DNA of 64,000 bases. Source: Beijerinckiaceae bacterium (GTDB taxonomy: Bacteria; Pseudomonadota; Alphaproteobacteria; Rhizobiales; Beijerinckiaceae). The stretch covers positions 530,110 to 594,109 of the forward strand of contig JALJOM010000003.1 of NCBI GenBank assembly GCA_024304885.1. Reading direction: 5' to 3'. The position numbers were made by a program, and so were the translations under genes. Shown piece by piece: positions 1,151 through 16,379 of the stretch (positions are counted from its first letter, which is position 1; each line of letters starts with the position of its first letter). The notes below the pieces were generated by a model, which saw only the letters and a program-made list of their open reading frames with translations, had not been told where the DNA came from and searched no databases.

Positions 1151-1648
1151 ATGGGACGGCCCGCGGCGAGAATTACGGATCCGGTCGTTCACCCGTTGCC
1201 TCCGGTGCTTACCCCGGGCCCCGGCAGCGCCAACGTGCTCATCGGTTCCCTGCCGGCATGGCGAGGCGTGGGGGGCGCCGCGGCGGCAGCGATCCAGGGC
1301 GCCAAGAAAGTTTCCGACGCGGCGATCCGGGCCGCCGAGATGGCGACGGTCGCGGCAGCCGGCACGCCGGGTGCCCCCGCCGCGAAGGCCGCCGAGGAAG
1401 CGACCAAGTCTGCCGCCGCCGCGTCCATGGGCTCGATGATCACCAGCGCCGCGGGTGGCGCCGACATCCATCAATGCGCGACGCCGCTCCCGATCCCGCC
1501 GCATGGGCCGGGCGTGATCGTCGACGGTTCCGCAACCGTGCTCATCAACAACCTACCGGCCTGCCGCCAAGGCGATACGATCGTCGAGGCGGTGGGTCCG
1601 CCCAACAAGGTCGCGATGGGCCTGCCGACGGTGCTCATCGGGGGATAG
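1151..1648 (+). CDS. PAAR-domain protein (type VI secretion spike-tip type)
   Basis: This 165-residue protein has two PAAR-like halves. The first (residues about 1-38) starts with PAARITDPVVH and ends in NVLIGSLPAWR. The second (about 105-165) contains GPGVIVDGSATVLINNLPAC and ends in GLPTVLIGG. An Ala-rich helical insert of about 60 residues separates them. PAAR proteins form the sharp metal-binding cone on the VgrG spike of type VI secretion systems. AGGAG lies about 8 bases before the ATG. No VgrG, Hcp, effector or immunity gene lies in the window, so this is an orphan PAAR gene here. The domain call is firm; a link to an active secretion system is inferred. Confidence 0.85.
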   Translation: MGRPAARITDPVVHPLPPVLTPGPGSANVLIGSLPAWRGVGGAAAAAIQGAKKVSDAAIRAAEMATVAAAGTPGAPAAKAAEEATKSAAAASMGSMITSAAGGADIHQCATPLPIPPHGPGVIVDGSATVLINNLPACRQGDTIVEAVGPPNKVAMGLPTVLIGG

Positions 1649-3292: not shown

Positions 3293-3306
3293 TGGCGGAG
3301 GGAGCG
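3293..3306 (+). repeat. attL core: 14-base copy of the tRNA-Ser 3' end
   Basis: TGGCGGAGGGAGCG is identical to 12740-12753, the 3' terminus of tRNA-Ser(GGA) on the minus strand. The flanks do not match beyond 14 bases. Confidence 0.8.
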
Positions 3307-3407
3307 TCCGACGAATTAGGGTCCGCGACTGGTCGGGAATGTCCGAGCAATCGTCTAAAAATCCGTGACTTAGGAAAAAATCTGTTCGCATTTGTTCGCC
3401 TGCGATG

Positions 3408-3420
3408 CTATAAATCCGCG
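3408..3420 (+). promoter_or_regulatory. Element-specific CTATAAA-CCGCG motif before the integrase
   Basis: CTATAAATCCGCG lies 32 bases before the integrase start. Near-identical motifs occur at 11371-11384 and 11655-11668, upstream of two small genes of the same element. TATAAA could act as a -10 box, with CCGCG at or after the start of transcription. The shared sequence is seen; its role is inferred. Confidence 0.35.
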
Positions 3421-3424
3421 TCAG

Positions 3425-3449
3425 ATTGTGGGGCGGATTGTGGGGTAAA
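3425..3449 (+). promoter_or_regulatory. Candidate left arm-type integrase sites
   Basis: Two tandem units, ATTGTGGGGCG and ATTGTGGGGTAAA, end just before the integrase ATG at 3452. The same modules recur near the right end (12665-12684) in swapped order. Repeats of this kind next to both attachment sites are typical of arm-type binding sites for tyrosine integrases. Confidence 0.5.
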
Positions 3450-3451
3450 GC

Positions 3452-4663
3452 ATGGGGCGGCGATCGAACAAGCTCTCGGCTCGCACCGTCGCGACACTCA
3501 CGAAGCCCGGCCGGCACGCGGACGGGAACGGGCTTTATCTCGTCATCGACCCGAGCGGCGCGAGGCGTTGGGCTTTCCTCTTCACGCATGACGGCAAGCG
3601 CCGCGAGATGGGCCTCGGCTCGGCGGGCGCGGTCACTCTCGCCGCCGCGCGCGATCTCGCCTTCGAAGCAAGAAAGCGCGTCGCGGCCGGCATCGATCCC
3701 CTGGAAGCGAGGCGCGAGGCTGCAAAGGCGATCGTCGGCAAGCCGACCTTCGGACCATGCGCCCTCGGCTACATCGCGGCGCACGAGGCGAGCTGGCGCA
3801 ATGCCAAGCATCGCCAGCAATGGCGCTCGACGCTCGAAACCTACTGCACGGCGATTTGGGACAAGCCCGTCGACGAGATCGACACGGAAGCCGTGCTCGG
3901 GGTGCTTCAACCCTTGTGGCAGTCCGTGCCCGAGACCGCTTCGCGGCTTCGCGGGCGCATCGAAGCCGTTCTGGACGCGGCTCGGGCGCAAGGGCACCGC
4001 ACCGGGGAGAACCCGGCACGTTGGCGCGGGCATCTCGACCACCTTCTCGCCAAGCCGCAAAAGCTCTCTCGCGGGCATCACGCGGCAATGCCCTATTCCG
4101 AGGTCCCGGCCTTCGTGGCGAGCCTGAGGGAGCGGGAAGCCTTGGCGGCTCTCGCCTTGGAGTTCGTCATCCTGACGGCGGCGCGATCCGGCGAGGTCCT
4201 CGGCGCGCGATGGTCGGAATTCGATCTCGCGGCGAAGGTCTGGACCATCCCCGCGGCTCGCATGAAGGCCGGGCGCGAGCATCGTGTGCCGCTCTCGGGC
4301 CGCGCGATGGCCATTCTTGCAAAGCTCGCCGAGGGCCGGACCGGGGACTTCGTCTTTCCAGGGCAGCGACCCGGCAAGCCACTCTCGGGCATGGCAATGG
4401 AGATGGTGCTTCGCCGGCTGAAGGCAGAGGTCACGGTGCACGGGTTTCGGTCGAGCTTCCGGGATTGGTGCGGCGAGGAGACCCATTTCCCGCGTGAGGT
4501 CGCGGAAGCGGCCCTTGCGCATGTCGCCGGCGACGCGACGGAACGGGCCTATCGGCGCGGCGATGCCCTCGAGAAGAGGCGCGGGCTTATGGAAGCCTGG
4601 GCCGCATTCTGTGAGCCTAGAGCAAGTGACAACGTGGTGCGGATCCACAAAGCCGCGAGCTGA
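3452..4663 (+). CDS. int: Tyrosine recombinase integrase (P4-type, arm-binding N-terminal domain)
   Basis: This 403-residue protein has a DUF4102-type arm-DNA-binding domain (about 8-95, with DGNGLYLVIDPSGARRWAF), a SAM-like core-binding domain (about 100-200) and a C-terminal catalytic domain. The catalytic set is visible: Arg245 in TAARSGEVL, Lys272, His330 and Arg333 in HGFRSSFRDW, His357 in LAHVAG, and nucleophile Tyr367 in ERAYRR. Length and layout match P4-family integrases that target tRNA 3' ends. It lies just inside attL, reads into the element, and is the distal-end integrase relative to the intact tRNA. No truncation or missing residue is seen, so it is probably active. Confidence 0.95.
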   Translation: MGRRSNKLSARTVATLTKPGRHADGNGLYLVIDPSGARRWAFLFTHDGKRREMGLGSAGAVTLAAARDLAFEARKRVAAGIDPLEARREAAKAIVGKPTFGPCALGYIAAHEASWRNAKHRQQWRSTLETYCTAIWDKPVDEIDTEAVLGVLQPLWQSVPETASRLRGRIEAVLDAARAQGHRTGENPARWRGHLDHLLAKPQKLSRGHHAAMPYSEVPAFVASLREREALAALALEFVILTAARSGEVLGARWSEFDLAAKVWTIPAARMKAGREHRVPLSGRAMAILAKLAEGRTGDFVFPGQRPGKPLSGMAMEMVLRRLKAEVTVHGFRSSFRDWCGEETHFPREVAEAALAHVAGDATERAYRRGDALEKRRGLMEAWAAFCEPRASDNVVRIHKAAS

Positions 4664-4777
4664 TAGAACTCAGTGCCCCCCGGTACGCGGAATCTCACTC
4701 ACGGATTGCTCGCGGACGATGAGATGCAAACGTCCAGGAGCCACATAATTGAGACGATATAAACGGCAGTCAAGTTC

Positions 4778-5317
4778 TCAGAACTCGGCGATCGTCTGTT
4801 GAACGATAAACCGAATATTCTTGTAGCCGTTTATTTTTGGATACCGAGTCAAAGAGTTAGGCACATATTCAGAGAACGCGCGTTTTTGCGTAGCCGGCAC
4901 AGATAGGTGTATGCTCACCGTATCTTCAGCGACAGTTATACATCTGGGTAGGTTACGATGCAGATCATCGATAAGGTCATCAAACATGCCCGGGCAATCC
5001 GATACGATGATTCGAACTCTCAGTTCTGCTAAGGGATATGCTGATTTGTTCAGAACAGTGCCGGTGAATTTTGGACTATATGAGTCGAAAGATAAAGTTG
5101 TGTCGGTCAGGTCTATTTGATCAACTGAGATTAACAAACTAGCCGACTGCCGCTTGGCGGCAGATTGCCGATTATCATACCAAAAGTAGGCTGCGCCAAT
5201 AGCTACCAAGGCGGCTAGGGCCCCCGCAGTATAGGCTAAAAAACGTCTGAACCCTGAATACTGAATCGCGAAATAAATAATGCCTAGCAGTATGATGCTG
5301 AGCGCGAGCCATTCCAT
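4778..5317 (-). CDS. Small membrane-anchored protein of unknown function
   Basis: This 179-residue protein begins with two hydrophobic helices (about 2-20 and 25-46) and continues with a soluble domain. That domain includes ISVDQIDLTDTTLSFDS, FTGTVLNKSAYPLAELRVRI and a C-terminal strand-rich part. The pattern 'a variable strand, then GTVLNKS, then L..L.V.I' resembles FxLyD-like or late-embryogenesis-like beta domains that describe 'non-local' interactions. No known enzyme motif is seen. The gene has much lower GC and more A/T-ending codons than its neighbours, so it was probably acquired recently. It points toward the integrase and is the only leftward gene in the left half of the element. 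The soluble-domain reading is a guess. Confidence 0.6.
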   Translation of the reverse strand: MEWLALSIILLGIIYFAIQYSGFRRFLAYTAGALAALVAIGAAYFWYDNRQSAAKRQSASLLISVDQIDLTDTTLSFDSYSPKFTGTVLNKSAYPLAELRVRIIVSDCPGMFDDLIDDLHRNLPRCITVAEDTVSIHLSVPATQKRAFSEYVPNSLTRYPKINGYKNIRFIVQQTIAEF

Positions 5318-5755
5318 CGTATCGCACTTTCGAGAGCGATGTCAGAAACGAATATCTCATGTTGGGCCTGACTGTGGTTTCAGGGCCTCGGTCAGGGTGC
5401 CGCGGATCGCTTCTGAACGTGATGTCTTTGAATCGAGTAAGGCACAAAATCGGCCAGCTGAGCAATAGGCGGCGTCTTCCGGCCCGGCCCTAACCCAGGC
5501 CGCGTTGATCTATACGCTCACCGAGCCGGGGCGGAACCTCGGTTCTTTCGAGATAAGGGCTAACCGAGACGTGGCACGAAAAGATCGGCTCGGCGCTCGA
5601 ATTCTCAGACAGTGGCGCATGAGCGCCGATCTCTGCCCTTGGCCCCGTTCGCCCGTCCGTGTTCGTTCCTATATGACGTTGCACGGGGATAGGCCGGCCA
5701 GCCGACAAGCGAGTCGAACCCAATTGCTTCCCCGCGTTCCTTCGAAGCTCGCGGA
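5318..5755. other. Non-coding stretch inside the element
   Basis: These 438 bases separate the leftward membrane protein from the rightward 410-residue gene and probably hold both promoters. Composition goes from A/T-rich on the left to GC-rich on the right. No convincing gene, RNA or repeat is seen. Confidence 0.5.
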
Positions 5756-6988
5756 ATGCATGCGATGACAGACTTTTTCAAAGCACGCGGGATTGATCGC
5801 TTCGTCCCAATCCATGACTTGATCGATTGGCTTGCCAGCGAGGACAGGACGAAGTTCGATCCGGATCGCGAAGTCGCTGCCGAGAGGCCCGTCAAATCTT
5901 GGTCCGATCCGCCTGGGCGGAAACCGCTGTCGCAGCGAGGGCAAGAATTGGCAAGAATGTATCGCGCGGCCGAAGCCGAGTTTGCATGCCGTGCGTTCAA
6001 TCGGGACATTATCGTCCGAGGATTCCTCTCGGGGGATCCTAGCCGTGCCAGAGTGCAAGTCCCCAATGATCTCTTCGAAGGCATCCGGACAGCCGGCGCG
6101 GAATTCCCCGACGAGCGTTTGCTCTGGCTGTGCGTGACCGATGATGACGTGCATTACCTCGAGTATACCGTCGTAGACGACGGGCGCGGCGGATCGAGGC
6201 GCGACGACCGAATTATGAAAGCCGGCAAGGTACTCTTTTCCGGGCTTGTTGTCGAAATCGGTGACGTGTTGCAAACGTGGGGCTTGGGATTCGAGAAGGA
6301 GGTCGATCTCGGTACGGCCTCAGTGACAGCAGACGACGCCGATTGGTTCGCGAAGCAATGGAGACGCGAATACGTGCCTTTGTCGGCTGCTTTGCTATGG
6401 ATCGCGAGTGGGGGGCGCATCGAGCGCGGCAGTTGCAACATCGCCTATGACGAACTGGATAAGATGCAAACTGAGCTGATCTCGGCCCTACAACTCGGCA
6501 AGCTGAAAGCAATCGGCCGTCGCGGCTGCGATCCAACGCATCCCGAAGAAGTTCCTGCGGTCGAATTCAATTGTCGAGTCAGCCCTTTCCGTCGTCCAAC
6601 GCCGATCGAATGGATTTTTGGCGAGCAATATGAACCCGTGTTGAATTGGTACTCTCTGGCCGATGCCGGCCCGGATTCCGGACCCGGCGATAAAATCTGG
6701 AATCGCACGGGCACTGTATGGTGTCGCCTTGCAGTTATGCGGTGTGAGGTAGAACGCTGGTCGGCGCCCAATGCCACAGGCCATGGCGCTGCGCAAGGAA
6801 TCAACGAACAGAAAAGGCTTGCTGTCGATCTTGCCATTCAAGCCATCGGGCTCGACCAGTTGAATGGCATGAAACAGAAAGAGCGCGAGGCACATATTCT
6901 CGACCATTGCAAGAGCGTGTCTGGCGTCGAAGTTACCGACCGTTATGTCAGGATTAGACTGAAGACAGCCAAGGGGGAACGAAGTTAG
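5756..6988 (+). CDS. Unknown 410-residue element-borne protein
   Basis: No known enzyme motif is recognised. The protein seems to contain two related modules, about 70-150 (EFACRAFNRDIIVRGFLSGD, then VPNDLFEGI) and about 235-290 (LISALQLGKLKAIGRRGCD, then VPAVEF). The pattern is 'helix, small-residue turn G.L.A.G, then a P..xF strand', seen in uncharacterised Hyphomicrobiales proteins. The middle has PLSAALLWIASGG. The C-terminus (HILDHCKSVSGVEVTDRYVRIRLK) looks like a helix-turn-helix-like end domain. Composition is slightly lower in GC than the chromosome. It lies alone between the membrane protein and the AlpA-like gene. Met4 (5765) is an alternative start. Possible roles are cargo, regulation or phage interference; none is shown. 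Confidence 0.65.
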   Translation: MHAMTDFFKARGIDRFVPIHDLIDWLASEDRTKFDPDREVAAERPVKSWSDPPGRKPLSQRGQELARMYRAAEAEFACRAFNRDIIVRGFLSGDPSRARVQVPNDLFEGIRTAGAEFPDERLLWLCVTDDDVHYLEYTVVDDGRGGSRRDDRIMKAGKVLFSGLVVEIGDVLQTWGLGFEKEVDLGTASVTADDADWFAKQWRREYVPLSAALLWIASGGRIERGSCNIAYDELDKMQTELISALQLGKLKAIGRRGCDPTHPEEVPAVEFNCRVSPFRRPTPIEWIFGEQYEPVLNWYSLADAGPDSGPGDKIWNRTGTVWCRLAVMRCEVERWSAPNATGHGAAQGINEQKRLAVDLAIQAIGLDQLNGMKQKEREAHILDHCKSVSGVEVTDRYVRIRLKTAKGERS

Positions 6989-7088
6989 GAACGTTCCTAA
7001 AAATTGTTCCCAACGTTCCTTTCGACAAGCGCGAAACGGTGCATATAGTGGGGAGCTATCTCGAACAACCGCAGCACGAGGTAGCTGA

Positions 7089-7289
7089 ATGCCCAGAATT
7101 GTTCCCAATATCAGTCCCGCCGAGAAGCTCGCCCTTCGCGTCAATGAAGCAGTGGCGACGGCGGGAATCTCCCGCAGCACGATCTACAAGCTCATGGCCC
7201 TCGGGCAACTTCGCACGACGAAGGTCGGCGGGCGGCGCTTGATCCTTCGCGAGGACCTGGAAGCTCTCTTGCAGCGGGGCGCGCAGTGA
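7089..7289 (+). CDS. AlpA/excisionase-family helix-turn-helix protein
   Basis: This 66-residue protein has the winged-HTH excisionase pattern: residues about 17-45 (VNEAVATAGISRSTIYKLMA) form the HTH, followed by the wing LGQLRTTKVGGRRLILREDLEALL. The family includes AlpA of P4-like prophages and MerR-like excisionases that turn on integrase or excision genes. Its stop overlaps the GTG start of the next gene, so it is the first gene of the replication operon. An AlpA-like activator ahead of a primase is a hallmark arrangement in Gram-negative phage satellites. Confidence 0.85.
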   Translation: MPRIVPNISPAEKLALRVNEAVATAGISRSTIYKLMALGQLRTTKVGGRRLILREDLEALLQRGAQ

Positions 7290-7939
7290 GCACCCCCGAC
7301 AAGCGAAGCCCGGCCCCGCTTGGCGCAGCGGAAACCGGGCTCGGAGATGTCGATAGGCGGACGGCCGATGACATTTCCACCCTACCGAATTCGGGCCTTC
7401 CCGGCAAGGGCGCATCGATACGAGCCGAGCTTCGGCGCAAGCGGGACGTGGACGCGCTTTGGCGCCTCGGGCCGGCGCCGCTGTGGCATTTCATCTGCGA
7501 GGTCGAGAAGGGTGCGGACCTCGACGTGACGCTGGCGCGCTACGCGGCTTTGCCTGCGGATTTCATCAAGGCCCTTGGCGGCGACCGCTTCGCGCCTTGC
7601 CTCTTCGTCATCGACGGGGGGGCGCGAATGAAAGGGCGTGTAGATTTCCGGACGGTCGCTGCCGCGGCGGTCCCGGCACTGCCGGCGATCCTCGCGCGAT
7701 TGCTTCCCGGCGGCGTGACCGAGGGCGGCGAATATTCCGCGCTGAACCCGTGCCGGGCCGATCGGCGGCTCGGCTCGTTCAAGGTCAACCTGCGCTCCGG
7801 CAAGTGGGCCGACTTCGCGACCGGCGACAAGGGCGGCGATGTCGTTTCACTCGTCGCCTATATCGAGCATATCGGGCAGGCCGAGGCCGCGCGGCGGCTC
7901 GCCCATATGCTCGGCCTGGACACGAGGGGGCGCCGATGA
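7286..7939 (+). CDS. Primase N-terminal-domain-like protein
   Basis: This 217-residue protein carries, at about 145-210, a segment like the N-terminal domain of phage and plasmid primases: NPCRADRRLGSFKVNL, KWADFATGDKGGDVVSLVAY, then a helical LARRLAHMLGL-like end. The zinc-binding cysteines of the classical CHC2 finger are replaced (DFATGDKGGD form), as in many mobile-element primases. The N-terminal half is less conserved and holds a helical DALWRLGPAPLWHF region. The GTG start overlaps the AlpA-like stop, and its own TGA overlaps the ATG of the toprim/DUF927 gene. The two proteins probably act together in primer synthesis for element replication. Confidence 0.75.
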   Translation: MSTPDKRSPAPLGAAETGLGDVDRRTADDISTLPNSGLPGKGASIRAELRRKRDVDALWRLGPAPLWHFICEVEKGADLDVTLARYAALPADFIKALGGDRFAPCLFVIDGGARMKGRVDFRTVAAAAVPALPAILARLLPGGVTEGGEYSALNPCRADRRLGSFKVNLRSGKWADFATGDKGGDVVSLVAYIEHIGQAEAARRLAHMLGLDTRGRR

Positions 7940-10416
7940 ACGTGCACCCTCTCGACAAGTTCGCGCCGCTGGCTCCGCACGAGCTGGCGAGCGGGCCGGC
8001 GCCGCAACGCGAGGACGATCCCGGCGAATGCGTCTTGCCCGTGCCGGACGCTGCACCGCCCTGCCCGTCATCGCATCATCGGCTCGGCTCGCCGTCATGC
8101 AGATGGACCTATCGCGATGCGGCCGGCGCCACGTTGTTTTATGTCTGCCGTTTCGATCCTTCGGCAAGCTCGGGAGCGGACGGCAAGGAATTCCGTCCGC
8201 TGTCGTTGTGGCGCGCGCCGAATGATAGGCTCGAATGGCGATGGAAATCGGTTCCCGAGCCGCGGCCGATCTACAATCTCGACAAGGTCGCGGCCGACAC
8301 GCAAGCGCCACTTGTGGTTTGCGAGGGCGAGAAAGCAACCGATGCTGCCGCGCGTGTCTTTTCGAAAAGCATCGCGACGACATCGCCCGGCGGATCGCAA
8401 GCGGCATCGAAAGCCGATTGGTCGCCGCTCGCCGGACGCAAGGTGTTGCTCTGGCCCGACAATGACGAGCCGGGCTCGAAATTTGCGCACAAGGTGGCGT
8501 CGGTTCTCGCCGGGCTCGGGTGCGACGTATCGATCATCGATGCGCAAGCGCTGGCGAGCATCGATCCGCAAGGTGGCTCGCGCGAGCCTTTACATGGTTG
8601 GGACGCGGCCGATGCTGTCGCCGAGTGGCAGGACCTCGGCGCGTTGCGCAAATCCGCGGTAGGCTTCGTCGAGCCCTACCATCAAGCGCCGCAATTCGTC
8701 GATTGGGGCGACTTCACCATGGATGCGCGGGGCCTGACACAAGAGGTCACGAAAGGCCGCGGCGAGAATGCCACGACGGAGAACGTGTGGATCGCCGCGC
8801 CATTCGAAATCCTCGGCGCGTGCCGTGATCCTCATGGCCGTGCGTGGGGAAAGTTCCTGCGGTGGCGCGATGCCGATGGCCGAGAGCATGTGCGGCATGT
8901 CGCCGATGCAGCGCTGCAAGGCGAGCCCGCTGCGCTTTGTGCCGACCTCGCATCGGATGGCTTGGGGATCAATCGATCGCAGCAAAGGGCGCTCGCGAAC
9001 TACCTGAGCGGCGCAACGGTCACGGGTCGCGTGACCGTGGTCAACCGGACCGGCTGGCACGACATCGGCGGTCAATCCGTCTTCATGCTGGCCGAGCAAA
9101 TCAGTGCCCCACGTGGCACCGAGACGGTCATCCTCGATGCTGCGGCGATCGGACCCTACGAGGCGTGCGGATCGCTGAAGGACTGGCAGGAGGGCATCGG
9201 TCGGCTTTCGAGAGGCCACGCCTTGCCGGTGCTCGCGATCTCTGCCGCGCTTGCCGGTCCGTTGCTTCATCTCGCCGGGCAAGAGGGCGGCGGCGTCCAT
9301 GTCTTCGGCGGATCGTCCAAGGGCAAGACGACCTTGCTCCAAATGGCGGCGTCGGTTTGGGGCCGCGGTGCGACGCCCGGCTATGTGCGGGCTTGGCGCG
9401 CCACGGCGAACGGGCTCGAGGGCGCGGCGGCTTCGGCATCGGACACGTTGCTCGTGCTCGACGAGCTCGGCGTCGTGGATGCGCGGGACGCGGCGGCGGC
9501 GATCTATGGTCTTGCCAATGGCGCGGGGAAGCAGCGCGCGGCGCGTGACGGCTCCTTGCGCGAACCGAAGTCGTGGCGGGTGCTCGTGCTCTCGACCGGC
9601 GAGGTCCCGACCGAAGCCAAGCTCGCCGAGGACACGGGCCGCAAGGCGCGCGCCGGCCAATTGGTGCGGCTTCTCGACATTCCCGCAGATCGGGGGGCGG
9701 GCTTCGGCGTCTTCGACCACGGCGGGCGCGACGGCAACCCTGGCACCCTCGCCGAGGACTGCAAGCACGCGGCGATTTCGGCTTATGGCACGGCGGGGCC
9801 TGATTTCGTGCGGCGGATCATCCGGGAAGGTGCGGACGACATCGGCGGCAAGGTGCGCGACATCGTTTCAGGATTCGTCGCGCGCGAGGTCGAGACGGGC
9901 GCCGATGGTCAGATCATGCGCGCCGCGCAACGGCTCGGATTGATCGCGGCGGCGGGCGAGCTGGCGACGGCTTTGGGCATCGTTCGTTGGCAGCAAGGCG
10001 AGGCCGACGCGGCGGCGGCATGGGCTCTTGCCCGTTGGGTCGAGAGGCGCGGCGGGACCGAGCCCGCGGAAGTCCGGCAAGCCATCGAGCAAGTTCGGCT
10101 CGTCATCGAGCAGCATGGCGAGGCCCGGTTCGATGCCTTGGAGGATCGCGACGCCAAGCCGGCGAGCAACCGGCTCGGCTGGCGCAAGGGCAGCGGTGCC
10201 GCACGGGAATGGTGGATTCCACCGGAAGTCTGGAAGGCCGAGATTTGCGCGGGGCTCGATTCGACCATGGTTGCCCGGACCCTCGCCGAGCGGGGGATGC
10301 TGCGCACCCAAGGGGGACGCGGCTTTCAGTGCAAGGTCAACCTCGGAGGTGAGCGGCGAGCGCAAGCTTATGTCCTGACCGCGGCCATCATCGACGGGGG
10401 CTCCGATGCGTCCTGA
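7936..10416 (+). CDS. Toprim-DUF927 primase/helicase of the element
   Basis: This 826-residue replication protein has a toprim-like region first (about 110-205), with acidic residues in VVCEGEKATDAA (Glu130, Glu132) and LLWPDNDEPG (Asp175, Asp177). Next is a DUF927-type P-loop domain (about 270-620) with Walker A GGSSKGKTT at 458-466 and Walker B LLVLDELG at about 504-511. The typical DUF927 tail with LSTGE follows. The C-terminus (WWIPPEVWKAEIC) is a winged-helix-like end. The ATG at 7936 overlaps the previous stop (ATGA) and was chosen over a longer frame that runs through the upstream gene. Such proteins start replication of P4-like and satellite elements. Confidence 0.85.
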   Translation: MNVHPLDKFAPLAPHELASGPAPQREDDPGECVLPVPDAAPPCPSSHHRLGSPSCRWTYRDAAGATLFYVCRFDPSASSGADGKEFRPLSLWRAPNDRLEWRWKSVPEPRPIYNLDKVAADTQAPLVVCEGEKATDAAARVFSKSIATTSPGGSQAASKADWSPLAGRKVLLWPDNDEPGSKFAHKVASVLAGLGCDVSIIDAQALASIDPQGGSREPLHGWDAADAVAEWQDLGALRKSAVGFVEPYHQAPQFVDWGDFTMDARGLTQEVTKGRGENATTENVWIAAPFEILGACRDPHGRAWGKFLRWRDADGREHVRHVADAALQGEPAALCADLASDGLGINRSQQRALANYLSGATVTGRVTVVNRTGWHDIGGQSVFMLAEQISAPRGTETVILDAAAIGPYEACGSLKDWQEGIGRLSRGHALPVLAISAALAGPLLHLAGQEGGGVHVFGGSSKGKTTLLQMAASVWGRGATPGYVRAWRATANGLEGAAASASDTLLVLDELGVVDARDAAAAIYGLANGAGKQRAARDGSLREPKSWRVLVLSTGEVPTEAKLAEDTGRKARAGQLVRLLDIPADRGAGFGVFDHGGRDGNPGTLAEDCKHAAISAYGTAGPDFVRRIIREGADDIGGKVRDIVSGFVAREVETGADGQIMRAAQRLGLIAAAGELATALGIVRWQQGEADAAAAWALARWVERRGGTEPAEVRQAIEQVRLVIEQHGEARFDALEDRDAKPASNRLGWRKGSGAAREWWIPPEVWKAEICAGLDSTMVARTLAERGMLRTQGGRGFQCKVNLGGERRAQAYVLTAAIIDGGSDAS

Positions 10417-11032
10417 GCTTGCAGCGAAGCTCGATCGGATTGCACGCGGGGACTTTGGTCAAGAATCCGTTCGAACCGATGGAACGTTGGAACGTACTGA
10501 CAAAGTTCCAACAAGTGGCCCGAACAAAGATCTGCAATTTCAACGGCGTTCCAACAGTTCCAAGCGTTCCAACACGAAAACAGCAAGTTTGGAGAAGGCG
10601 CATTTTAGCGTCGGAACTTGCGTTGGAACAGGATCCGAACCGCGGCCTGTAGGCTATTCCGAGCCCGATCCTGCCGACCTTGAGGAGCGTGCGGCAATGG
10701 CCATGGGCGACGTGCCCGAGCCCTATCTCGATGCTTGGGCGCGGCTGCAAATGCAAAAGCCCTTACGAGTTTCGGATGATGCATGGCGCCGAGCGATCGA
10801 CGACGCGGGCCGCTTTCTCGACCAATGGGCCAGCCTTGCCCTCGAATACGGATGGACGGCGGGCGATCTTTTCGACGTGCCGCGCGATGGTCGCTCGGGT
10901 CTTGCCTGGTTCCTGCGCGGCGCCGAGGTGCGGGCGCTCGGACCGCAGCATGCGGCGCTAGTGGATGGTCGCGACTATGACAGAGTGACCCGAGGCGAGC
11001 CCCTCATTCCACCGGCGAAGCGCGGGGGGTGA
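10406..11032 (+). CDS. Unknown element protein, 208 residues
   Basis: The start overlaps the end of the primase gene by 11 bases, and the stop overlaps the XRE gene start, so it belongs to the same operon. The first 85 residues are low complexity, rich in Ser, Thr, Asn and Lys (TSGPNKDLQFQRRSNSSKRS) and probably disordered. The C-terminal part (about 90-205) is a compact helical domain with YLDAWARLQMQKP, WRRAIDDAGRFLDQWASLA and DLFDVPRDGRSGLAWFLRG. That domain is often seen next to primases in Hyphomicrobiales mobile elements, with no assigned function. DNA of the disordered part is less GC-rich than its surroundings. Confidence 0.65.
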   Translation: MRPELAAKLDRIARGDFGQESVRTDGTLERTDKVPTSGPNKDLQFQRRSNSSKRSNTKTASLEKAHFSVGTCVGTGSEPRPVGYSEPDPADLEERAAMAMGDVPEPYLDAWARLQMQKPLRVSDDAWRRAIDDAGRFLDQWASLALEYGWTAGDLFDVPRDGRSGLAWFLRGAEVRALGPQHAALVDGRDYDRVTRGEPLIPPAKRGG

Positions 11033-11274
11033 TGATGACAGCCGGCAATAGCGAGTTGACGCCCGAGCAGCTTCGCGGCGCGCGGGCGATGCTCGGATGG
11101 TCGCCGCAGCGCCTTGCCGAACGTTCCGGCACGCATCGGCGCACGATACGGAAGATCGAGCAGGGACGGATCGCCAAGCCGCAACGGAAGACCACGGCCC
11201 GCATCGTCGGAGCGCTCCAAGCTGGCGGGGTCGAATTCTTGGAGCGGGGCGCAATCCGGTTGAAAGGTTCCTGA
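11032..11274 (+). CDS. XRE-family helix-turn-helix regulator
   Basis: This 80-residue protein has a Cro/C1-type HTH at about 13-50 (EQLRGARAMLGWSPQRLAER, then HRRTIRKIEQGRI) and a short C-terminal extension ending GGVEFLERGAIRLKG, a common ending in small XRE regulators of mobile elements. The ATG at 11032 overlaps the previous TGA by one base; a GTG three bases earlier is also possible. It closes the replication operon and may control it. Confidence 0.8.
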   Translation: MMTAGNSELTPEQLRGARAMLGWSPQRLAERSGTHRRTIRKIEQGRIAKPQRKTTARIVGALQAGGVEFLERGAIRLKGS

Positions 11275-11370
11275 TCGGAATTTTCCGGTGCGGTAAAACG
11301 CGCGCGCGTGCGCGAGGCTACGGCAAGGACACGATTGCGCGCCTACGTACCGGCTCGGAATTCCCGGGCA

Positions 11371-11384
11371 CTATATAACCCGCG
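11371..11384 (+). promoter_or_regulatory. Element motif CTATATAACCCGCG
   Basis: This is the second copy of the CTATAWAA-CCGCG motif. It lies about 48 bases upstream of the 62-residue gene, a possible -10 box and operator. Confidence 0.35.
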
Positions 11385-11431
11385 CGCGAGGCCGGCGGGC
11401 AGGCAAGCCGACGCGATAAGGGGCGCATGTG

Positions 11432-11620
11432 ATGGAACCCGAGCCGACCAGGGACGATATGCCATGCGAGCGGGCCATACGGGAGTTCCGTTCGATCGCG
11501 TCGAGAATCGACCGGCTCCGGCTCGACTTAGAGCGTATCGAACGGAGCCTCGTCGAGGTCCTGCGCAAGATGCCGAAGAAGCAGGGAGCCGCAGCGGAGC
11601 CCGAGGAATACCCTTCTTGA
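11432..11620 (+). CDS. Small coiled-coil protein
   Basis: This 62-residue, highly charged protein is mostly one predicted helix (about 12-48, IREFRSIASRIDRLRLDLER) with heptad spacing of Ile and Leu, then a basic and acidic tail ending EEYPS. It resembles short helper proteins found beside terminase genes, but no family is recognised. A CTATATAA-CCGCG promoter-like motif lies upstream. A GTG three bases earlier is an alternative start. Confidence 0.5.
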   Translation: MEPEPTRDDMPCERAIREFRSIASRIDRLRLDLERIERSLVEVLRKMPKKQGAAAEPEEYPS

Positions 11621-11654
11621 CCACGCCCGGCGGTGAAGCGCTGAATTTTCCCGC

Positions 11655-11668
11655 CTATAAAAGCCGCG
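11655..11668 (+). promoter_or_regulatory. Element motif CTATAAAAGCCGCG
   Basis: This is the third copy of the motif, 64 bases before the terminase-small-like gene. It fits the idea of a promoter class shared by late genes of the element. Confidence 0.35.
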
Positions 11669-11731
11669 AGCGCTGTCGCGTTGTCAGACCTTCGCGGTGC
11701 ATCGTCGAATTCAATCGTAGGAGATCAAGCG

Positions 11732-12037
11732 ATGCCACGCGGTGGTAGGCGCGAGGGAGCGGGGCGGAAGCCCGGCACGGCGAATGTCAGGACCCGCGCG
11801 ATTGCCGAAAGGGCGCTGGCAGCGGGATTGTCACCGCTCGAATATCTCTTGTCGCTCGTGCGAGACGAAGTGCAACCGCAAGCCGTCCGGCTCGATGCGG
11901 CGAAGGCCGCAGCGCCTTACGTGCATCCGAGGCTCTCGTCGGTCGATTTGCGGGCGCAGGTCCAAAATGTCGAGGACTTACCCGATCACGAGCTTGCGGC
12001 AATTGCGCTCGGAAAGGGCGCCGAGGCGGTGGATTGA
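11732..12037 (+). CDS. Phage terminase-small-subunit-like protein
   Basis: This 101-residue protein begins MPRGGRREGAGRKPGTAN, a motif typical of small DNA-binding phage proteins often annotated as terminase small subunits. It has a central helix pair (LSPLEYLLSLVRDEV) and the AKAAAPYVHPRLSSVD signature shared by that group. GGAG lies about 8 bases before the ATG at 11732; a longer frame from 11681 lacks a good site. There is no large terminase subunit in the window. A lone small terminase on a satellite is used, in PICIs, to redirect helper-phage packaging. That role is inferred here; the family likeness is moderate. Confidence 0.65.
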   Translation: MPRGGRREGAGRKPGTANVRTRAIAERALAAGLSPLEYLLSLVRDEVQPQAVRLDAAKAAAPYVHPRLSSVDLRAQVQNVEDLPDHELAAIALGKGAEAVD

Positions 12038-12117
12038 TGGCTATTCGTTTTGCGCTCGGCGTCGATCCGTGTCCGCGTTTCGCCCTGAGAGAATTAGTCT
12101 CGGATCGGGTCGCGCGG

Positions 12118-12444
12118 TTATCGCTGGCGTGAAACGGGACGAGAGCCGGCAGACCGAACCTCGCGCAAATGCTGTTGCTTCAACGCCTGAATTTGCATTC
12201 CTGTCTCGATCATGCCGGCTTCGTAAGCGGCTTTGGCAGCTCCGTCGTAATCGCCGGCTGCGAGAAGCCTGCCGATGTTCTCGCGCTGCATCCGTTCGAA
12301 GCCGCGGCGAATGTTCCTGCCGAGGTCTTCCATCCCCGAGAAATCGACGCTCGGATATGGGTTCGGGCGCACGATGTAGATATCGCCGGCAAAAGCGGGC
12401 AATGTCGAGGCGGCAAGCATCGCCGCGGCGCAAATCGCTTTCAT
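12118..12444 (-). CDS. Small secreted protein
   Basis: This 108-residue protein has a clear signal peptide (MKAICAAAMLAASTLPAFAG, cleavage after AFA near residue 19). A mature helical part follows, with NIRRGFERMQRENIGRLLA and YDGAAKAAYEAGMIETGMQI, and a basic tail. AAAGGA is 6 bases before the ATG. It is the last gene before attR and points inward, as cargo genes often do. The function is unknown. Confidence 0.65.
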   Translation of the reverse strand: MKAICAAAMLAASTLPAFAGDIYIVRPNPYPSVDFSGMEDLGRNIRRGFERMQRENIGRLLAAGDYDGAAKAAYEAGMIETGMQIQALKQQHLREVRSAGSRPVSRQR

Positions 12445-12664
12445 GGGTCATTCCTTTGGATTCACGGAGAAGGGCTCGTCGGCAAATGAGCCGATCGAGA
12501 GAGACTTACAAACGATCTCACAAGTCAGGATTATCCTCAATGAGGATCCACGAGTTGACGGATTCGCGGGCTGCGGGTCCGCGCGGGCTGGCGTCGAATC
12601 CGGCTCGCACACGCACGCGACTTGCGATTGCACCTTTAGTCACGATCCCGAGCGCCGCTCCGAA

Positions 12665-12684
12665 ATGGGGTAAATTGTGGGGCG
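12665..12684 (+). promoter_or_regulatory. Candidate right arm-type integrase sites
   Basis: ATGGGGTAAA is followed directly by ATTGTGGGGCG, the same modules as at 3425-3449 in a different order. It lies 56 bases inside the right attachment core. Confidence 0.5.
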
Positions 12685-12739
12685 AGCGCCACAGCTTGCC
12701 GGCTAACCTAAGTTATTTCAATTGATTAGGCGTATCGAA

Positions 12740-12753
12740 TGGCGGAGGGAGCG
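12740..12753 (+). repeat. attR core: 3' end of tRNA-Ser
   Basis: This is the right copy of the 14-base repeat, overlapping the last 14 bases of tRNA-Ser(GGA) including CCA. The tRNA stays intact after integration. Confidence 0.8.
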
Positions 12754-12829
12754 GGATTCGAACCCGCGATACGGTTTCCCGTATACACACTTTCCAGGCG
12801 TGCGCCTTCAACCACTCGGCCACCCCTCC
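12740..12829 (-). tRNA. tRNA-Ser (anticodon GGA)
   Basis: This is a 90-base class II tRNA on the minus strand. The acceptor stem GGAGGGG pairs with TCCCTCC (one G-T pair), and the 3' end is encoded as GCCA. The D-arm region GGCCGAGTGGTTGAAGGC is typical of tRNA-Ser. The anticodon loop CTGGAAA contains GGA (12793-12795). A long variable arm (GTATACGGGAAACCGTAT) and the T loop GGTTCGAATCC follow. It reads UCU and UCC codons. It is the integration target of the element to its left. Confidence 0.97.
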
Positions 12830-12841
12830 AAGAACTCGCTC

Positions 12842-12888
12842 GAGCCTTTGCCGGCAGACCGGAAAAAGGTCCGCATCGCGAAAATACG
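12842..12888 (-). repeat. Palindromic intergenic repeat, family 1 (degenerate copy)
   Basis: On the minus strand it reads GTATTTTCGCGATGCGGACC ... CCGGCAAAGGCTC, matching the family pattern GCATTTTC-GCGACGCGAACCGG-...-GGAAAATGCTC found elsewhere in the window. It lies between tRNA-Ser and the TonB-domain gene. Confidence 0.45.
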
Positions 12889-13107
12889 GCACTGAAAATA
12901 GCGCGACGGCCCTCGTGAACCGTGCCGATCGGAAAGTGCTCTCGAACGAACCGAGCCGTCGGTTTCGTGCTCGGGCGCACGGGATCCGGCCGTGCCCCGG
13001 CACCGCGGGCGCGTCTGAATTGGCGCGCACTATAGTGCCGGGATGCGCGAGCGCAAGCCGACAAAAGCGCGGTCGGTCCGCGCTCCGGCGGCGCGGCAGC
13101 TCGAGCC

Positions 13108-14909: not shown

Positions 14910-16379
14910 ATGTGGACATCGACAACACGACGCGGTTTCCTGCACGGTATAGTCGCGACGGGACTCTCGGCGACATCCGGGACATGCCTCGCCGGCGGCG
15001 GAGTCGGCACGCCGGTTCGGATCCGCAGAGAAATCTACGGCCTCGCCGCCGATGGTCCCGAGATCGCCGCGTTGAAGCGCGGAATCGCCGCGATGCAGGC
15101 GCGCCCGGCGGAGGATCCCACGAGCTGGCTGTTCCAGGCCGATATCCACGGCACCGACGATCCCTTGCCGTCCGGGAGCGGGCCGTGGAGCGACACCTGG
15201 AACACGTGCCAGCACGGCAGCTTCTTCTTCCTGTCGTGGCACCGGATGTATCTTTACTTTTTCGAGCGGATCCTTCGCGCGGCGAGCGGGGACTCCACCC
15301 TCACGCTTCCCTATTGGGACTATGACGCGCCGGAGCGGCGTGCCCTTCCCGAGGCCTTCCGCCGGCCCGCCGATGCGACGAACCCGCTTTTCGTCGCGGC
15401 ACGGCGACCGAGCATCAGAGCCGGCCAGCCCCTGCCCACGAGCGCGACCGGCGCCGCGCGAGCCCTCGCCACGGTGAATTTCGCCTCCGCCACCGGCTCG
15501 GGCGAGAGCTTCGGGGGGCAGGCGCTTTCCACGCCATCTCACTTCGACGGCCCGCCCGGTCGGCTGGAGTCGCAGCCCCACAACGTGATCCATGTGGCGC
15601 TCGGCGGCAACGACGGCTGGATGTCGGACCCCAACCTCGCGGCGCGCGACCCGATCTTCTGGCTCCATCACGCCAATATCGACCGGTTGTGGAAACGATG
15701 GCTGGCGCAGGGCGGTGGACGCCGAAATCCGACATCCGGTCCGTGGGCCACCACGGTCTTCAGCTTCGTCGACGAGACCGGCGCGATCGTCCGCTTGACT
15801 GGTGCGGATGTCGTCGACAGCGCGGGCCAGCTCGGCTACCGATACGATGACGAGCCCGGCGCTGTCGTCGCCGCGGGCGGAGCGGAATCCGAATCCATGG
15901 TTCCACCGGCACCGAGCCGTGTCCTCGCAGCCACACCTGCAGCCGAGGCGAGACTGCGCCTCGGCGGGCGCGATACGACCCTCGTGCTCACCCCACGCGT
16001 CGAAGGGGGGCCGGAGTCGGCCCTCGCGCCCGGCCGCCCCGCCGTCTTGTCCTTCGACGACATCGCCTACCGGCGTCCCGTCGGCGTCTACTACGAGGTC
16101 TATCTCAATCGCCCGACGAGCGCGCCGGCCGATCCGGAGGGTCCCTACTATGCCGGCAATCTCGCCTTCTTCGCGCTCGGGCACAAAGGCCCGGAAGGCG
16201 TGAGCGGAGCGCGCCTGACGCTCGACGCCCGTGTGGTTCTCGCCGACCAGATGCGGCTCGGGCTCTGGCGCGGCGGGGAGGTGAAGGTCGATCTCCACCC
16301 GGTCGGGGTCGAAACCACCGAGGCCGAAAGCGTCGTACCGACTGTCACGATCGGGCAGATCCGATTGCTCGGCAATTGA
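14910..16379 (+). CDS. Tat-exported tyrosinase (polyphenol oxidase-like copper enzyme)
   Basis: This 489-residue type 3 copper protein is the length of plant-type polyphenol oxidases. The N-terminus TTRRGFLHGIVATGL is a twin-arginine signal. CuA ligands: His80 (in ADIHGT), His102 (QHGSFFFLSWHR) and His111. CuB ligands: His224 and His228 (PHNVIH) and His253 or His254 (DPIFWLHHANIDRLWKRW). Cys100, two residues before His102, could form the thioether bond known in this class. A C-terminal beta-rich domain (about 330-489, with AVLSFDDIAYRRPVGVYYEV) resembles the shielding domain of plant enzymes. It would oxidise phenols to quinones in the periplasm. A caddie or copper chaperone gene is not adjacent. 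Confidence 0.9.
   Translation: MWTSTTRRGFLHGIVATGLSATSGTCLAGGGVGTPVRIRREIYGLAADGPEIAALKRGIAAMQARPAEDPTSWLFQADIHGTDDPLPSGSGPWSDTWNTCQHGSFFFLSWHRMYLYFFERILRAASGDSTLTLPYWDYDAPERRALPEAFRRPADATNPLFVAARRPSIRAGQPLPTSATGAARALATVNFASATGSGESFGGQALSTPSHFDGPPGRLESQPHNVIHVALGGNDGWMSDPNLAARDPIFWLHHANIDRLWKRWLAQGGGRRNPTSGPWATTVFSFVDETGAIVRLTGADVVDSAGQLGYRYDDEPGAVVAAGGAESESMVPPAPSRVLAATPAAEARLRLGGRDTTLVLTPRVEGGPESALAPGRPAVLSFDDIAYRRPVGVYYEVYLNRPTSAPADPEGPYYAGNLAFFALGHKGPEGVSGARLTLDARVVLADQMRLGLWRGGEVKVDLHPVGVETTEAESVVPTVTIGQIRLLGN

Follow-up and report, generated by a model that had tools for sequence, protein, structure and literature searches.

Phage-inducible chromosomal islands (PICIs) are delimited, in the sections of PMC6092414 that define them, by an integrase, a replication module and a transcriptional regulator without structural or lytic genes in about 12-15 kb, and further by an attachment (att) site that is never occupied by a prophage, by PICI-exclusive orthologues and by helper induction, packaging and interference. 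The same sections place the origins of Gram-negative PICIs directly 3′ of rep, as iterons in two sets that flank an AT-rich stretch. The origins of Staphylococcus aureus pathogenicity islands (SaPIs) are also iterons directly downstream of rep, and the DUF927 helicase Cch is akin to SaPIbov1 Rep (parts of PMC7581432). Phage-inducible chromosomal minimalist islands (PICMIs) are modelled with DUF3987 or DUF5906 primases and insertion at fis, and terS was not identified in PICMI115 in the portion of PMC10803314 relied on here. We analysed 64 kb of a Beijerinckiaceae genome (C3:530110-594109 of genome G000, 3.8 Mb in 8 contigs; referred to as the window), in which a 9447-bp element is integrated at a tRNA-Ser(GGA) gene (Table 1).

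The element is probably a PICI-like satellite: it would excise, replicate from an origin of its own and employ its terminase small subunit (TerS) to divert the large terminase (TerL) of a helper; most likely, it moves between cells by taking over the particles of another virus. The reading is based on a closed att structure in which each end has at least one candidate arm motif and the same layout in loci L056, L385 and L386, on TerS relatives that stand beside TerL, yet without a TerL in the window, on the kinship of the helicase with structures in the PDB together with iterons right after its gene that are also seen in relatives, and on a TerS of another family after the same module in L058 as well as the same TerS family in L092.

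If mobilised, the element would provide a small satellite model in Hyphomicrobiales, and it would link a wide family of Proteobacteria DUF927-helicase islands to a satellite way of life because of the kinship of the helicase to SaPI and staphylococcal cassette chromosome mec (SCCmec) types and the iteron cluster beside its gene. A concrete mechanism of packaging is suggested by the orphan TerS, whose family usually stands next to TerL. No satellite of Hyphomicrobiales was found in the literature searched, in which one search was poorly selective and preprints and most subscription papers were outside the scope.

Boundaries and integrase

A sequence-only reading of this DNA had proposed 14-base attachment repeats at a tRNA-Ser gene enclosing about 9.5 kb, with an integrase next to attL. 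All of this was confirmed: the two copies of TGGCGGAGGGAGCG are exact, the right copy forms the 3′ end of an intact tRNA-Ser(GGA), and the integrase, which matched phrog_1 (1.7e-49) and three Pfam domains above cut-off, starts 145 bp past the left core. TGGCGGAGGGAGCG occurred only twice in the 64 kb when both strands were searched with up to one mismatch (expected 0.15), two or more such matches arose in 2 of 100 shuffles, and it is the longest same-strand exact match of positions 12701-12900 with the rest of the window. The 14-bp repeat alone is modest evidence for element ends; the weight comes from the integrase beside the left core, from three copies of ATTGTGGGG and from the same layout in L056. 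ATTGTGGGG, whose copies resemble what we take to be arm-type integrase sites, was present exactly three times in the 64 kb (expected 0.27; no shuffle of 100 contained three).

At 62%, the GC content of the element is lower than that of the 3.3 kb on its left (70%) and of the remainder of the window on its right (66%). Flank searches in 60 genomes returned no empty site in which both flanks adjoin, the left-flank loci L103-L105 being without a tRNA, and the whole element gave no megablast match in the plasmid collection.

Relatives of the integrase (E<=1e-60) were present in 13 of the 15 genomes of the genus. The integrases of L374 (71%), L375 (69%) and L055 are 69-71% identical to that of the window, and the core orientation is common to all. 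Among 11 sister loci with sequence (L374-L384), seven have a complete tRNA-Ser immediately before int and on its strand, two (L374 and L375) have a flipped core remnant as in the window, and two have neither arrangement, L382 of these starting within the gene. The integrase of the window belongs to the class placed at the end away from the tRNA. An inverted GGCGGA..TCCGCC-like core marks the int side of L055, L056, L060, L385 and L386, and L375 and L387 are alike.

Three related elements were closed: L056 (7.7 kb), L385 (16.9 kb) and L386 (14.7 kb). L056 carries an integrase of 55% identity in the layout of the window, at a tRNA-Ser(CGA) whose 3′ end has 14 bp in common with a site ~125 bp before int. 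L385 and L386, both from sister genome G009, have tRNA-Ser(CGA) and tRNA-Ser(GCT), respectively, at the end away from int. The two cores of each are identical at 13 of 14 positions and exact over the first nine, and the differing base is swapped, the GCT element carrying at its int side the core found at the 3′ terminus of the CGA tRNA, and vice versa. A core exchange would fit moves between tRNA-Ser genes or mutual recombination and, at one base only, is only suggestive. The two elements also share a cargo block with a long SLT transglycosylase-domain protein similar to phrog_2013 'lytic tail protein'.

Replication operon and putative origin

The genes alpA, primase, helicase, the 208-residue gene and xre overlap by 4-11 bases and are therefore read as one operon, with terS downstream in the same direction. 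We scanned 10 of the 11 listed open reading frames (ORFs) against Pfam, PHROGs and NCBIfam, leaving out the 63-residue ORF; results for 10 ORFs refer to this set. The AlpA-like protein (HTH_17, 5.7e-11; Phage_AlpA just over cut-off, 21.8 bits versus 21) and the XRE-family helix-turn-helix (HTH) regulator of the sequence-only reading were both recovered. Its two-gene primase/helicase stood for the helicase (DUF927, 4.2e-71; NF047345, 9.3e-16; a Toprim match below cut-off) and less so for the primase, whose CHC2-type match was weak (5.5e-4) and below cut-off. A profile of seven helicase sequences matched the PDB entries 8tch 'Pathogenicity island protein' (7.7e-31) and 5dgk 'Active helicase' (6.3e-28), which we take to be SaPI Rep and SCCmec Cch, and no other. 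PADLOC returned only HTH and primase-type matches. A gene similar to the 208-residue gene follows the helicase in several relatives (L054, L056, L058, L059, L275 and L279).

A cluster of GTTCCAAC sites after the helicase gene is the putative replication origin. Five exact sites on either strand lie at 10486-10629 and one elsewhere in the 64 kb, a total of six that none of 100 shuffles reached; with up to one mismatch, nine sites (five exact and four with one mismatch) fall within 161 bp, where the density in the remainder of the window predicts 0.11 sites per 340 bp. The most AT-rich part of the 7-12 kb region coincides with the iterons (lowest 60-bp GC 0.45, sampled every 10 bp). An arrangement of the sites as exactly two sets flanking an AT-rich stretch is arguable.

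To compare relatives, any 7-mer repeated in 460 bp around the helicase stop was set against other windows of its own locus, and 85 of the 89 helicase loci were testable. Judged against the windows of the same locus, post-helicase repeats were in the top 5% in 40 of the 85 loci and were unmatched by any other window in 29 (median 9%). A control region inside the helicase reached the top 5% in none of the 85, this control being coding sequence, which is possibly part of the contrast, and the background windows being of both kinds.

A terminase small subunit without its partner

The gene described as terminase-small-like in the sequence-only reading matched phrog_15261 (1.9e-21; no function given) and, weakly, two TerS families, phrog_641 (4.5e-6) and phrog_18735 (7.9e-5). 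Four phage records matched, and in all three that were opened the annotated TerL comes directly after the homologue. Among the best 80 of 226 relatives in IMG/VR, TerL lies <=1.5 kb downstream of TerS in 75 viral contigs; of the other five, one is at a contig end and four are without a recognised TerL, one of them, L338, having an ORF that by eye resembles a terminase. In the window, neither eight TerL queries (E 0.3 or worse) nor a larger set (none at 0.01) revealed a TerL. With TerL just downstream in so many viral relatives, the assignment is solid: the gene is a true terminase small subunit whose usual partner is missing. Its start was revised from 11681 to the ATG at 11732, which is more likely because of the AGGAG before it and the fit to homologues.

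TerS matches were present in 9 of 397 sampled genomes of the order, own included. Of the eight others, five have TerL beside TerS (L088, L089, L092, L093 and L094); in L090, L091 and L095, two TerL queries and inspection by eye revealed none. L092 combines an integrase of 49% identity with AlpA, a protein of Prim-Pol/VapE type, a member of the same TerS family and a TerL (phrog_2, 2.6e-20). In L058, a TerS of another family (PF05119, Terminase_4, P27-type; L058:4472-4969) follows the same primase-helicase module; two query TerLs were without a match in L058, a weak test, and none was seen by eye further downstream.

In the cycle that we propose, the integrase and the AlpA-like protein, an excision or activation factor, would excise the element from the 3′ end of tRNA-Ser through the two 14-bp cores. 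The alpA-primase-helicase operon would replicate it, the helicase binding the GTTCCAAC iterons just after its own gene. TerS would mark element DNA at a pac-type site and recruit the TerL of a helper, the DNA would enter helper particles, and in a new cell the element would re-integrate into a tRNA-Ser.

Distribution of relatives

Matches to the helicase (E<=1e-20) were found in 44 of the 397 genomes of the order, many of them to the N-terminal Toprim part only. Scans of GTDB and IMG/VR with the single protein returned no relative, and profile scans found relatives. In GTDB, at least 549 of 592 candidate stretches matched the helicase profile and the best 80 were kept; their titles name alpha-, beta- and gammaproteobacteria besides a few other groups. 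Within the genus, 7 of 15 genomes, own included, have a helicase match, and a long part of the helicase proper is found only in G000, G004, G006 and G007, interrupted by stops in the last two. The helicase relatives are sporadic in the genus and partly decayed; the block is not fixed, and fixation in all relatives is what the sequence-only reading had named as speaking against it.

The order int-alpA-primase-helicase-208-like is complete in L056, extends from int to helicase in L055 and runs from alpA onward in L054. Shorter parts of the operon order occur in L057-L060 and L067, and the primase adjoins the helicase in all of them. In L055 (G031), a transposase-like ORF interrupts the helicase, and a further ORF that shares its first 75 residues lies in the same region, between alpA and int.

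We also scanned 128 ORFs downstream of the helicase, 127 taken by rule from 63 of the 89 loci (one window ORF being swapped for TerS) and the TerS of L058 added by hand. They contained one Terminase_4 (L058), two DUF5681 proteins and eight resolvases (among 25 Pfam families shown of 51). In both L058 and L136, which encodes a DUF5681 protein (L136:13144-14887), a ParB/methyltransferase-like gene was noted by eye together with a resolvase-like gene. The post-helicase region of these two loci is possibly a recurring packaging module.

Evidence against a satellite and alternative explanations

Several observations weigh against a satellite. The TerS family of the window was found in 1 of the 89 helicase loci and is thus untypical of the relatives of the element. 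L109, whose helicase is 68% identical and which has a tRNA-Ser(GGA) 0.7 kb past its 208-like gene, is without this TerS family, and the close relatives L055 and L109 show no post-helicase repeat enrichment (fractions 0.49 and 0.92). The AlphaFold model of TerS (predicted local distance difference test, pLDDT, 77; predicted template modelling score, pTM, 0.45) gave no significant PDB match. A small-terminase chain at rank 33 (E 8.2) was rejected as noise, and a TerS profile run against PDB sequences returned two entries named RBL only (0.0003 and 0.0092) and no terminase.

Because TerS is rare among the helicase relatives, we read it as a swapped-in module. The same rarity, with a single Pfam Terminase_4 in the downstream ORFs, would also suit an integrative island that has a replicon of its own, moves in other ways (by natural uptake, generalised transduction or an unseen mobiliser) and carries TerS as hitch-hiking cargo without a role in packaging, and it agrees with this idea that the int-alpA-primase-helicase core exists without TerS and that the cargo genes are without assigned function. 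However, TerS is intact, has AGGAG before its start and points in the direction of the replication operon, a TerS of another family follows the same module in L058, and no relaxase or conjugation family was above cut-off in the 10 ORFs (a helicase-VirB8 match, 0.033, was below it). We regard such an island as unlikely.

The helicase family is not confined to satellites: it was also found in 49 phage records, in only one of them over most of its length, and its profile matched 536 viral-contig stretches, known from the matches alone; in L059, a tail-collar protein lies 2.5 kb past the helicase (L059:4168-5181). A prophage remnant that lost its structural genes and kept early genes and TerS would account for tail-like genes near some helicase relatives and for the phage homologues of int, primase/helicase and TerS. 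Against this, two intact att ends enclose 9.4 kb with open frames, the compact int-alpA-primase-helicase-208 order with both att ends recurs in the 7.7 kb of L056, and the ORFs flanking the element look chromosomal by eye, without a TerL; the broken prophage that the sequence-only reading had allowed for thus did not emerge, and we give a remnant scant credence. In L061, tape-measure-like and terminase-small-like ORFs were seen by eye (L061:2455-5475), and the helicase loci of L059 and L061 may be prophages. Packaging and virion genes that recur near integrases and helicases cut both ways, suggesting either a satellite habit or that some relatives are prophage parts.

The search for a helper was also negative. 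Our genome contains one match to the TerL family PF03237, in a head/tail/endolysin cluster of ~24 kb with portal, tail and endolysin genes (G000:C3:1526072 to about 1550400; L280:9573 on, L282:1-14886), and the longest stretch that this cluster has in common with the element is 16 bp (E 0.09), a chance match. The missing cos-like stretch argues against TerS as an interference factor that competes with the small terminase of a helper to limit the phage or protect the host, transfer being secondary and dependent on helper TerS at a shared cos or pac site, with the limit that this was the one structural cluster compared. Published PICIs do interfere with their helpers, and some are packaged via helper cos sites without a TerS of their own, according to parts of PMC6092414; we nevertheless hold this role of TerS to be very unlikely.

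No integrase was seen by eye in the resident cluster, and no tRNA lies beside it. Its TerL was matched in 13 of the 15 genomes of the genus (best matches 79-83% identical) and is full-length and open in 8 of the 12 others. Upstream of this TerL, in our genome and seven relatives, neither a TerS of the family present in the island nor a full-length conserved ORF was found, only short shared patches. The cluster is possibly domesticated and gene-transfer-agent-like. That this cluster is a fixed particle-forming machine of the host and serves as the helper, the orphan TerS supplying its missing small subunit and the element being a satellite of a gene-transfer-agent-like machine, is an outside chance at best.

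The genome also contains a second satellite-like element (G000:C3:2208144 to about 2220650; L068:9644 on, L099:3152) with a related integrase (61%), alpA, a VapE-type helicase and a tail-assembly-chaperone match below cut-off. It probably ends at tRNA-Ala(CGC).

Comparison with known satellites

Measured against the description of PICIs given above, the element has an integrase, a replication module and a regulator, no structural or lytic gene among the 10 ORFs, and iterons, as sequence sites, immediately 3′ of rep. Its 9447 bp are below the PICI range, and the related closed elements measure 7.7, 14.7 and 16.9 kb. In the features that sequence can test, it appears to work like a PICI, its small size excepted; membership of the PICI family is not established.

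Gram-negative PICIs of the EcCICFT073 type share with it int, an AlpA-type regulator, primase and rep, an iteron origin directly 3′ of rep, genes that mostly point one way and the lack of structural and lytic genes, and some of them have terS (sections of PMC6092414). The element differs from them in its DUF927-type helicase, in its size (9.4 kb versus typically 12-15 kb in those sections), in an int away from the tRNA, in having no recognised interference or capsid gene and in its Hyphomicrobiales host. SaPIs, as far as covered in PMC7581432, share the kin helicase, the iterons that directly follow its gene and a TerS that lacks a TerL, whereas the element has an AlpA-like protein where SaPIs have an Stl-type repressor layout, and integrase and host differ. 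SCCmec has a helicase homologue in Cch; in contrast to it, the element has a tyrosine integrase at a tRNA, a TerS and no resistance gene among the ORFs scanned.

PICMIs are also very small and have int-alpA-primase (parts of PMC10803314); membership was rejected, the element having a DUF927 helicase, tRNA-Ser and TerS instead. P4-like satellites share the integrase, AlpA and primase-helicase roles (PMC8628076, in part), but the P4 kinship put forward in the sequence-only reading was not upheld, no psu, sid, delta or epsilon family being among the matches of the 10 ORFs. An integrative mobilisable or conjugative element was rejected on the lack of relaxase and conjugation families noted above, and a capsid-forming PICI (cf-PICI) on the lack of own capsid genes in the scanned ORFs.

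Cargo and neighbouring genes

Table 1. Features of the element and their positions in the window.
Feature	Position	Strand	Remarks
Int-side attachment core TGGCGGAGGGAGCG	3293..3306	+	TCCG directly after; repeat search
Two candidate integrase arm-type sites ATTGTGGGG	3425..3445 (starts 3425, 3437)	+	Between core and int
Tyrosine integrase, 403 residues	3452..4663	+	Arm-DNA-bind_3, Phage_int_M, Phage_integrase
Membrane-protein-like ORF, cargo	4778..5317	-	46% GC; no assigned function
410-residue protein, cargo	5756..6988	+	No assigned function
AlpA/excisionase-like HTH protein	7089..7289	+	First gene of overlapping operon; family scans
Primase part	7286..7939	+	CHC2-like zinc ribbon below cut-off; overlaps alpA and helicase
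Toprim/DUF927 replication helicase	7936..10416	+	Kin of SaPI/SCCmec-type helicases
208-residue protein	10406..11032	+	No assigned function; similar gene after helicase in relatives
Iteron cluster, putative replication origin	10469..10629		Nine GTTCCAAC sites, both strands
XRE-family HTH regulator	11029..11274	+	Family scan
63-residue ORF	11429..11620	+	Between xre and terS; ORF list
Terminase small subunit, 101 residues	11732..12037	+	ORF opens at 11681; without TerL after it
108-residue protein, cargo	12118..12444	-	Signal-peptide-like start by eye; no assigned function
Third ATTGTGGGG, candidate arm-type site	12674..12682	+	Near tRNA end, 57 bp before right core
tRNA-side attachment core TGGCGGAGGGAGCG	12740..12753	+	3′ 14 nt of tRNA-Ser(GGA)
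tRNA-Ser(GGA), intact	12740..12829	-	ARAGORN; single tRNA of window

As the sequence-only reading had stated, no structural, lysis or conjugation genes were recognised in the 10 ORFs; head-and-packaging matches were limited to TerS and one weak match of the AlpA-like HTH (0.081). That reading had omitted three genes, at 4778-5317, 5756-6988 and 12118-12444. The 410-residue protein is orphan cargo, with no match in the 397 sampled genomes of the order besides our own and none in the phage collection, and its structure predicted alone was uninformative (pLDDT 36). Outside the element, a PAAR-like protein to the left (by eye; window positions 1151-1648) is a candidate type VI secretion spike, and a tyrosinase-like protein with a twin-arginine-like start lies to the right (by eye; 14910-16379).

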